Source: Paenibacillus sp. sptzw28 (lineage in GTDB: Bacteria; Bacillota; Bacilli; Paenibacillales; Paenibacillaceae). From it: a stretch of DNA of 64,000 nt. The notes beneath the pieces were generated by a model. That model searched no databases, was not told the DNA's origin, and saw only the letters and a list, made by a program, of their open reading frames with translations. Both the position numbers and the translations under genes were made by a program. Position 1 is the first letter of the stretch. Each line of letters begins with the position of its first letter. The stretch lies in NCBI RefSeq assembly GCF_019550795.1, contig NZ_CP080545.1, forward strand, positions 1,259,501 to 1,323,500, in the 5' to 3' direction. Of this stretch, positions 17,300-19,393 are shown one piece after another.

Positions 17300-18052
17300 T
17301 CATCCCAGTTTGACGCTTTCAGTCATAGCGTTATAAATATGACCCGATTTTTCAACCTTCGTTGCCAAATAACGAGTGTTGTGCTTGGATACATCCCCCC
17401 AAATGGATACATGGTTATCGGTTAAGAGACCTTTTTCCCGCAATGACTGCAATTTCCTGGGATTGTTCGTTATTAAACTTACCGGTTTTTGCCGCAAACC
17501 TTGGAGTACGCGTATCGCCTCTTCATAGGATCTTTGATCGTCAGCGAAGCCAAGACTAAGATTTGCCTCTACAGTATCGCATCCTTCATCCTGCAGGATA
17601 TAAGCTAATGATTTGGAAAAAAGTCCAATTCCACGGCCCTCGTGATTGGCCAAATAGAATAATGCCCCGCAGCCGTTATCGACAATCATTCGCATGGATT
17701 TCCGTAATTGATAGCCGCAATCGCATCGTTTACTTCCAAATATATCTCCCGTGTGGCAAATGCTGTGCATCCGGATTAAGGCATTCTCTCTATTGGCAAA
17801 ATCACCGTATACAAGCACGGAGGATTGTTGGTAGGAAGCTAATTCTGCATGAGGTAAAAATTTGAGTACATCATCCATCTGCATGGAAGCGCTGCCTAAA
17901 TTCAGCCAGGAATACCATTTGAAATCGATCTCCTGGTCGTCCAATTGAACAGGAAGCCTCACCGGGCCTACAAGAGCTATATCAGGACTTTGCTGTTGTT
18001 TTAGAATAGTTGTTTTATCAGCCAGAGCATTGTTAACCTGGTTCTTATTCAT
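17300..18052 (-). CDS. ribA: GTP cyclohydrolase II (stand-alone RibA)
   Basis: The block RMHSICHTGDIFGSKRCDCGYQLRKSM gives three zinc Cys, and NHEGRGIGLFSKSLAYILQDEG, LGFADDQRSYEEAIRVL and LITNNPRK are signature motifs. The enzyme opens GTP to start riboflavin-type synthesis. It lacks the DHBP synthase half that Bacillus RibBA proteins carry; instead about 60 extra residues precede the catalytic core. ATG 18052 follows AGAGGAGATGGATTC. A GTG at 18118 is in frame and has AGGTAAG near it, so a 22-residue longer form is possible. It leads ribD by 16 bases and lies 130 bases after a riboswitch terminator. Confidence 0.9.
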   Translation of the reverse strand: MNKNQVNNALADKTTILKQQQSPDIALVGPVRLPVQLDDQEIDFKWYSWLNLGSASMQMDDVLKFLPHAELASYQQSSVLVYGDFANRENALIRMHSICHTGDIFGSKRCDCGYQLRKSMRMIVDNGCGALFYLANHEGRGIGLFSKSLAYILQDEGCDTVEANLSLGFADDQRSYEEAIRVLQGLRQKPVSLITNNPRKLQSLREKGLLTDNHVSIWGDVSKHNTRYLATKVEKSGHIYNAMTESVKLG

Positions 18053-18180
18053 GAATCCATCTCCTCTGTTTGTATAGTTATCGGTGGTATGATGGCCCCG
18101 TCTCTCAACTGAAATCACTTTGCTTACCTGTCACCGCACCTCCTGATAGTTATTCAGCTTGGGCAGATCTTCCGCGGACG

Positions 18181-18221
18181 GCAAAAAAACCCGTCTACAC
18201 GTGAGAGTGAATAGACGGGGC
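18181..18221 (-). terminator. Intrinsic terminator of the c-di-GMP riboswitch upstream of ribA
   Basis: On the minus strand CCCGTCTA and TAGACGGG pair around a 14-base loop, followed by seven T. A competing stem is possible, since GACGG just upstream can pair with CCGTC of the terminator's first arm. This is the arrangement of a transcription-attenuating expression platform. Confidence 0.85.
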
Positions 18222-18233
18222 TGAGCCGTCGTA

Positions 18234-18326
18234 TTCGGTAGCTGGCTGGCATAGCGGATATTTGATCCGCATTAGCCCCTTTAGCTTTGCGTCGCCGCTT
18301 TTCAGCGGGTTTGCCATTATCGTACG
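18234..18326 (-). ncRNA. Cyclic-di-GMP-I (GEMM-I) riboswitch aptamer upstream of ribA-ribD
   Basis: Read on the minus strand, the sequence has in order: ATAATGGCAAACC; a perfect stem CCGCT-GAAA-AGCGG capped by a GNRA tetraloop; the core GACGCAAAGCTA; AGGGGCTAA; a second stem GCGGAT/ATCCGC; and the 3' block TATGCCAGCCAGCTACCGAA. These match the consensus blocks of GEMM-I aptamers as I know them. The flanks TCGTA and TACGA are complementary and could extend the closing helix. An FMN riboswitch would be expected before rib genes, but its conserved blocks are absent. Confidence 0.88.
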
Positions 18327-18341
18327 AAATATTTCAAAAAA

Positions 18342-18378
18342 GCACTCCTGCCGCCGCAATCACTGCGAAAGGGCAGGT
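18342..18378 (-). other. Extra hairpin just upstream of the riboswitch aptamer
   Basis: On the minus strand CCTGCC and GGCAGG pair, with an inner GCA/TGC stem, followed by AGTGCTTTTTT. It looks like a terminator or leader hairpin lying between the candidate promoter and the aptamer. If it acts as a terminator, the aptamer would need readthrough. Confidence 0.4.
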
Positions 18379-18398
18379 AAAAATTAGTAAAAAATGTC

Positions 18399-18428
18399 AT
18401 TATACTCTAAAGCATGTTTAACTGACTA
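18399..18428 (-). promoter_or_regulatory. Candidate sigma-A promoter for the riboswitch-ribA-ribD transcript
   Basis: On the minus strand TATAAT (18404-18399) is a perfect -10. TAGTCA (18428-18423) is a 4-of-6 -35 at an 18-base spacing. It lies about 75 bases upstream of the aptamer, in an AT-rich stretch with no gene. Confidence 0.5.
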
Positions 18429-18517: not shown

Positions 18518-19393
18518 TTATTCGAGGGAGGACCAGTGCGCCGGGTGAATAAGTGACGGGGGCAGTTTTGTAGTCATATCCCCTTTGGCAGCGTTCACCT
18601 GAGCTTGTGTGAGAAAAATACTTTCAGTAAGGTTAGCGCCTCTGAGATCAGTATCCCGGAAATCAGCTCCAATAAGGTCAGCCGCTCTCAGGTCGGCACC
18701 TCTGAGGTCGGCTGCAATAAGGTAAGCCCCTCTCAAATTGGCGCCTCTAAGATCGGCCCCCTTCAGCTTCGCACCGATAAGGTCAGCCCCTCGGCCGTAC
18801 GTCTTGCGACGGTTCGGGGAGCCCTTCAGGGAGCGAAGTGCTTCGGCTCTGACAAGTTCACTGGCCTCCACGAGCAAAGCGTTGACATCTGCCCGATATT
18901 CGGCAACATCCAGTTCGATTAGTGAATCGGGAGCAAGATGAGTAAGGCGCTCCGTTTCTTCCAGGGCAGAACGGAGAGCATCCCGCATCACACGGGCTGG
19001 CGGAAACGATAGCGCTTCACTCAGATACCAAAGGAGTTCATGGAGGTGCCTCATGACCGGAAATACTTCAAACATTTGTTTTGCGGTTTCCGGGGCTTGC
19101 CGCCAGTCCTGCCCGCCGAAGGTCACTTGGGAAACCTGCTGCCCCGCGCCAAAGCAATCATAAACAGTGCATCCTGGGAAGCCCAGCTGCCTGAGACTGC
19201 CGTGAACGCCGCAGCGGAAGTCCGGCTGCAGGTTTTGGCAGGGCTGCCCGGCAGCTTTGTCAATTGCGAAGTCTGCCGAAGCCGAGAACGGCAGGGCAGC
19301 ACAGCACAAGCCGAAGCATGCCTCGCAGTCGGCTTGCAGAAGGAGCCGGCTGCCGCCCTGGAAAAGCCCAGAAGATTCTTGATTATTAGACAT
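18518..19393 (-). CDS. Pentapeptide-repeat protein with Cys-rich N-terminal domain
   Basis: 291 residues. Residues 195-265 are tandem pentapeptide repeats (GADLIGAKLKGADLRGANLR...), which form a right-handed four-sided helix. Residues 15-85 hold a Cys-rich region with CEACFGLCCAALPFS, GQPCQNL, FRCGVHG and GCTVYDCFGAG, a likely metal-binding domain. The middle (100-190) is mostly helical. AAGGAGACCAGACA precedes the ATG. Pentapeptide proteins may mimic DNA and protect gyrase (Qnr, McbG), but most have unknown roles. The gene stands alone on the minus strand between the rib leader and the GH50-like gene. Function not assigned. Confidence 0.85.
   Translation of the reverse strand: MSNNQESSGLFQGGSRLLLQADCEACFGLCCAALPFSASADFAIDKAAGQPCQNLQPDFRCGVHGSLRQLGFPGCTVYDCFGAGQQVSQVTFGGQDWRQAPETAKQMFEVFPVMRHLHELLWYLSEALSFPPARVMRDALRSALEETERLTHLAPDSLIELDVAEYRADVNALLVEASELVRAEALRSLKGSPNRRKTYGRGADLIGAKLKGADLRGANLRGAYLIAADLRGADLRAADLIGADFRDTDLRGANLTESIFLTQAQVNAAKGDMTTKLPPSLIHPAHWSSLE

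Follow-up and report, generated by a model that had tools for sequence, protein, structure and literature searches.

Can a riboswitch for cyclic di-GMP (c-di-GMP) govern the first genes of the vitamin B2 pathway and, if so, in which direction and to what end? The locus that raises this question lies in a 64,000-nucleotide stretch of the Paenibacillus sp. sptzw28 genome, which we analysed as a whole and call the window. Riboswitches of this kind have been described ahead of motility, chemotaxis and adherence genes (PMC6366702, in part), and 114 GEMM-regulated genes of unknown function have been counted (PMC3766115, in part). A preliminary description of the DNA had placed a c-di-GMP-I riboswitch on the minus strand ahead of ribA-ribD and had proposed running the RF01051 and FMN models. 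The placement is borne out: a cmscan of the whole 64-kb window against 4227 Rfam families gave a single match, to RF01051, at 78.9 bits against a gathering threshold of 35 bits, and no other family in the window at gathering thresholds. The FMN model (RF00050) has no window match at threshold, which rules out an FMN riboswitch at the ribA-ribD locus. In the order of transcription, the features are:

18464-18436, minus strand: likely promoter, TTGCTT-17-TATATT
18377-18336, minus strand: G+C-rich hairpin with a T6 run after it, lying between the promoter and the aptamer, -16.5 kcal/mol
18327-18323, minus strand: 5' arm of the extended P1, TCGTA, which pairs with TACGA
18325-18234, minus strand: c-di-GMP-I aptamer, RF01051, E 7.4e-14, model positions 1-87 of 87
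18233-18229, minus strand: 3' arm of the extended P1, TACGA, its last two bases being the first two of the anti-terminator
18230-18214, minus strand: anti-terminator hairpin, GACGG (18230-18226) with CCGTC (18218-18214), -5.0 kcal/mol alone
18219-18183, minus strand: intrinsic terminator with an 8-bp stem, CCCGTCTA (18219-18212) and TAGACGGG (18197-18190), then T7 (18189-18183)
18052-17300, minus strand: ribA, stand-alone GTP cyclohydrolase II (GCHII) of 250 aa, ATG at 18052, PF00925 at 145.9 bits (cut-off 23.3)
17283-16186, minus strand: ribD, bifunctional deaminase/reductase of 365 aa, PF00383 and PF01872

The aptamer was aligned with the other host copies and with those of relatives, 21 sequences altogether (15 from the host genome and six from relatives). 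The GAAA tetraloop on P2 is invariant in all 21; in the RNAalifold structure 97.4% of cells are paired and two-sided changes occur in 7 of the 13 pairs, amounting to 28 cells, a value that none of 500 shuffles equalled. The element is a genuine, conserved c-di-GMP-I riboswitch with an unusual target, and its sequence predicts c-di-GMP binding.

The association recurs outside the host, at orthologous ribA genes. In an Rfam scan of 13 relative loci, RF01051 was found upstream of ribA in six, at 74.2-78.7 bits: Paenibacillus lautus (L026), P. cookii (L027), Cohnella sp. (L028), a Paenibacillus MAG (L029), L123 and L124. A covariance model made from the 21 aptamers recovered the same six from 95 ribA loci at E below 1e-19; having been built from the 15 host aptamers and these very relatives, it matches them by construction, and the Rfam scan of the 13 loci is the independent test. 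Among the 95 loci there was no further convincing c-di-GMP-I aptamer, two weak matches (E 0.065 and 0.44) being taken as chance. ribD lies next to ribA in six of the seven riboswitch loci (5/6 relatives), the Cohnella locus carrying ribA without ribD. A RibA tree of 96 rows unites the seven RibAs behind riboswitches in one clade with support 100/99 and a single label change; L024, L028 and L029 are long-branch rows in this tree, and some genomes are included twice in it, as they are in the 95-locus scan. The RibA relatives were the best 80 of 319 loci. A RibA search across 394 family genomes yielded 14, the host included, at E no higher than 1e-95. At genus level 22 genomes were searched, and two besides the host have RibA relatives, with E no higher than 1e-90 and identity of 63% at the most. 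Because the pairing of riboswitch and ribA is conserved in six further genomes, chance placement is unlikely; and since the flanking genes are unlike between the host, cookii, Cohnella and lautus-type loci, the module is either retained in a patchy way or mobile, and the switch goes with it.

That a stand-alone GCHII is followed by RibD on the strand of the riboswitch, as first described, agrees with the family profiles (PF00925 and NF001591 for the former; PF00383, PF01872 and TIGR00326 for the latter). RibA scores 189 bits with NF001591 (cut-off 148) and 168.9 with the equivalog-domain model TIGR00505, under its cut-off of 205.85; the profile search found no DHBP synthase domain in it. It aligns with the E. 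coli GTP cyclohydrolase II, PDB 2bz0, at E 3.3e-38, with identical columns for three Cys, which we take to be the zinc cysteines, and for a Tyr and an Arg that are presumably catalytic. If translation began instead at the GTG at 18118, the protein would have 272 aa. The N-terminal part of RibA, about 67 residues (18052-17852) with a KWYSW motif, lies outside the portion aligned to the E. coli enzyme. RibD reaches 403.2 bits with TIGR00326 (cut-off 156.35) and E 1.4e-111 with PDB 2b3z. From ribD to the leader the G+C content is 47.8% against a window mean of 50.3% (ribA alone, 43.4%); as this is the 26th percentile of the window, composition is not decisive for a recent island.

What the pair makes is a separate matter. 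The host genome, 6.1 Mb in a single contig, has a sole FMN riboswitch (C1:4158985-4159190), followed by ribD, riboflavin synthase, ribBA and ribH, genes that were named by eye together with PF01872 and PF00925 matches. With this complete rib operon elsewhere, the ribA-ribD pair behind the c-di-GMP riboswitch is redundant for the first pathway steps. A third host GCHII, at C1:5094376, lacks an adjoining RibD and faces a divergent HxlR gene. It is thus possible, although we incline against it, that the riboswitch is real and the product is something other than flavin, for example a pyrimidine or an azapteridine, a reading that fits either switch direction. Besides the full rib operon, the gene neighbourhoods of related stand-alone ribA genes speak for it: among 84 riboswitch-less loci, ribD is nearby in 51, an FAD monooxygenase (PF01494) in 31, an NT5C-type phosphatase in 39 and HxlR in 20, and at least one of the last three in 61, counts in which some genomes enter twice and in which neighbours may have been missed at the short loci L024 and L107-L110. 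Both the pseudoiodinine operon and toxoflavin synthesis involve homologues of GCHII and RibD (PMC9911603, in part). Against this stand three observations: (i) at the cut-offs used, no FAD monooxygenase or NT5C phosphatase was found near ribA at the seven riboswitch loci; (ii) the best monooxygenase match in the host genome is partial, at 34%; (iii) RibD scores as an ordinary bifunctional RibD.

The same neighbourhoods bear on how the riboswitch came to its place. L041:4001-7541 and similar Bacillaceae loci have the order ribA-ribD-FAD monooxygenase-NT5C phosphatase, a candidate GTP-derived pathway; elsewhere the order is monooxygenase-ribA-ribD with an HxlR gene upstream. At 8 of 91 loci a divergent HxlR gene stands within 900 bases upstream of ribA; L030, L031, L127 and L128 are four of these, and they belong with the riboswitch group to a larger RibA clade. 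An HxlR gene adjoining ribA was sought in the riboswitch clade itself and, with 40% identity as the lower limit, none turned up within 3.2-3.6 kb at any of the seven loci; L026 and L124 have a 30% HxlR relative downstream. We tentatively suggest, as a scenario that may well prove wrong, that in one Paenibacillaceae clade the stand-alone ribA(-ribD) module of Bacillales lost the HxlR and FAD-monooxygenase neighbours that it has in some lineages and gained a c-di-GMP-I riboswitch, which would have come from the leader family that also precedes several other metabolic operons of the host. An RNA switch replacing the protein-regulated context of ribA is plausible.

The host has 15 RF01051 matches, along with 14 GGDEF and 6 EAL matches. 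Surface and signalling targets of its aptamers include a PilZ protein (L006), CBM96/Big_2 proteins (L010, L011) and an fn3-type secreted protein (L008); the L001 aptamer precedes an ATP-grasp gene and then a chemotaxis receptor. Others stand ahead of metabolic genes: an acylating acetaldehyde dehydrogenase with 4-hydroxy-2-oxovalerate aldolase (L004), a cluster with a PLP decarboxylase and an AMP-ligase (L007), at L012 an SDR epimerase accompanied by cupin and DUF6157, and an MFS transporter that follows two aptamers in tandem (L009, L005). In a scan that left out L014, the first genes behind the L002, L007, L013 and L015 aptamers had no Pfam match. Flanks and platform are shared by 10 of the 15 host aptamers, and these TCGTACGA-type flanks with the GACGG..CCGTC platform look as if one riboswitch had spread within the genome.

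Aptamer and terminator lie on the minus strand ahead of ribA, as the preliminary description had it; its candidate promoter, TAGTCA-18-TATAAT (18428-18399, with TATAAT at 18404), did not hold up: it occurs once, no more often than chance predicts (1.2 in shuffles), and its -10 is unconserved in the relatives' leaders. A TTGC..-17-TAT..T pattern is instead present in 7/7 riboswitch-ribA leaders, a count made without a chance control and with additional weak matches in L026 and L123; it precedes the aptamer core by 111-115 bases in five leaders, by 69 in L028 and by 21 in L029. The hairpin at 18377-18336 is present as a single copy in the host genome and was rejected as a conserved second element (leader z -0.63 at the ribA-ribD locus); among the six leaders long enough, L027 alone reaches -3.15 and the rest range from -1.12 to -1.88. 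Different hairpins occupy a similar place in the cookii and Cohnella leaders. Between terminator and ribA, directly after AGGAGG, is a nine-codon GTG frame, VTGKQSDFS (18134-18105, minus strand), and AGGAGG-like sequences are present in the relatives' leaders also. The upstream neighbour (18518-19393, minus strand) encodes a pentapeptide-repeat protein whose N-terminal part is rich in cysteine.

The terminator hairpin has a computed energy of -14.0 kcal/mol alone and -15.0 with flanks. The pairing of GACGG with CCGTC and the extension of the closing helix by TCGTA/TACGA are both present as originally proposed, and their conservation was followed in the 15 of 21 leaders that have the shared platform (10 host, 5 relatives; L001, L006, L008, L014, L015 and L029 were left out, L029 having its own, different expression platform). 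The extended P1 pairs in 15/15, with one pair altered on both sides in L028 (TCGC/GCGA), and the anti-terminator keeps 5/5 pairs in 14 leaders and 4/5 in one. In all 15 the two helices share two bases and hence are mutually exclusive. A P1 that competes with an anti-terminator is the usual build of a termination OFF switch. By folding energies that take in no tertiary contacts, and with a folded P1 form that differs from the crystallographic aptamer, in 13 of the 15 leaders the unliganded nascent RNA is more stable with the anti-terminator, by 0.5-2.9 kcal/mol, and in two with P1, at the ribA-ribD locus by 0.4 and in L010 by 1.1 kcal/mol; once the unliganded RNA is full-length, the P1-forced (terminated) fold lies below the anti-terminator-forced one in 14/15, the exception being L123. 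The OFF direction that had been proposed is thus favoured by the comparison of structures, while the full-length fold, already terminated without ligand in 14 of 15 leaders, and the slight preference of the nascent ribA-ribD leader for P1 count against it. Given this preference for termination, switching must be kinetic and decided during transcription. Taking these models together, we consider it likely that the riboswitch controls ribA-ribD by ending transcription prematurely, and most probably in the OFF direction.

In the mechanism that we infer, from ligand binding through direction and kinetics to flavin as the end product, the RNA would start a little way after 18436. Once c-di-GMP has bound, the GA of GACGG would be held by the aptamer and the extended P1 (TCGTA/TACGA), which would block the full anti-terminator; the terminator at 18219-18183 would then fold and transcription would stop. 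At low c-di-GMP, GACGG would pair with CCGTC, the first arm of the terminator would be occupied and ribA-ribD would be transcribed; RibA and RibD would then channel GTP into 5-amino-6-ribitylaminouracil phosphate, beyond the reach of the FMN feedback on the main rib operon. Low c-di-GMP would in this way bring a greater supply of flavin precursor.

The opposite direction is unlikely, though it deserves weighing: as an ON switch, the same riboswitch would favour read-through on binding c-di-GMP, and ribA-ribD would be made in sessile, high-c-di-GMP cells. The terminated state of the unliganded full-length RNA in 14/15 leaders is what one expects of a default-off gene, and in Bacillus thuringiensis one class I switch, Bc2, is of the ON type, direction not being transferable between species (PMC6366702, in part). 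Yet in all 15 shared platforms it is the anti-terminator, rather than the terminator, that has to compete with the extended P1, which of all the helices lies closest to where the ligand binds.

Less probable still is an aptamer that binds c-di-GMP in a switch that is silent or secondarily decoupled in the cell. There are precedents: B. thuringiensis Bc1 binds c-di-GMP without a downstream response (PMC11218506, in part), and just 11 of the 16 c-di-GMP riboswitches of C. difficile are functional (PMC6366702, in part). Here, however, the aptamer and the competing arms of the platform are retained in the RibA clade, whose members are as little as 68% identical to the host RibA of this locus.

As for the ligand, a G is found at position 20 in 21/21 aptamers, at the ribA-ribD locus the G before CAAA (18314); we take this alignment column to be Vc2 position 20. 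RF01051 spans c-di-GMP and cGAMP kinds (PMC7288161, in part), but A20 marks the cGAMP type and A20G turns a cGAMP switch into a c-di-GMP switch (PMC6456294, in part), so that with G in every aptamer we reject a cGAMP riboswitch (GEMM-Ib) and regard cGAMP as a very improbable ligand.

The predicted OFF switch may be set beside known systems. In Clostridioides difficile the class I switches that function, seven in number, are all OFF; Cd1, which precedes the flgB operon there, resembles the ribA-ribD riboswitch in Rfam family, in having an aptamer followed by an intrinsic terminator and in the OFF direction predicted here (PMC6366702, in part). Unlike the targets described in these accounts of Cd1 and other c-di-GMP-I OFF switches, which are motility, adherence or surface genes, the target here is a GTP-consuming pair of the flavin pathway. 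B. thuringiensis Bc1 and Bc2 are likewise class I switches with terminators in Bacillales (PMC11218506 and PMC6366702, both in part). Bc2, however, stands ahead of a collagen adhesion gene and works in the ON direction (PMC6366702, in part), and Bc1, which does not respond, has two terminators downstream of its aptamer (PMC11218506, in part), whereas the ribA-ribD leader has one terminator downstream and a hairpin upstream. The FMN riboswitch, of which the host has its one copy, also controls ribD and ribA-type genes, but it senses the pathway product and is absent from the locus with the c-di-GMP riboswitch. The stand-alone ribA-ribD modules of Bacillaceae (L041, L030, L053) have a homologous ribA with an FAD monooxygenase, NT5C phosphatase or HxlR nearby and no c-di-GMP-I aptamer; the riboswitch clade has the aptamer and lacks these neighbours.

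The RNA class is thus known, and ribA-ribD as its target is apparently undescribed: among the titles and abstract openings listed from the open-access literature, none links a c-di-GMP riboswitch to ribA or ribD, although an earlier table entry is possible (PMC3766115, in part). Our results suggest that c-di-GMP directly controls a metabolic branch, through spare copies of the two genes with which the vitamin B2 pathway begins, and may thereby be linked to flavin or pterin metabolism. If true, this would be a direct RNA link from the decision between motile and sessile life to GTP and flavin metabolism that bypasses FMN feedback. Should the proposed exchange of regulators also have taken place, c-di-GMP would set the share of GTP that goes to flavin-type metabolism independently of that feedback. 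The idea that c-di-GMP steers metabolism can be tested in one short leader, with six natural variants for comparison.
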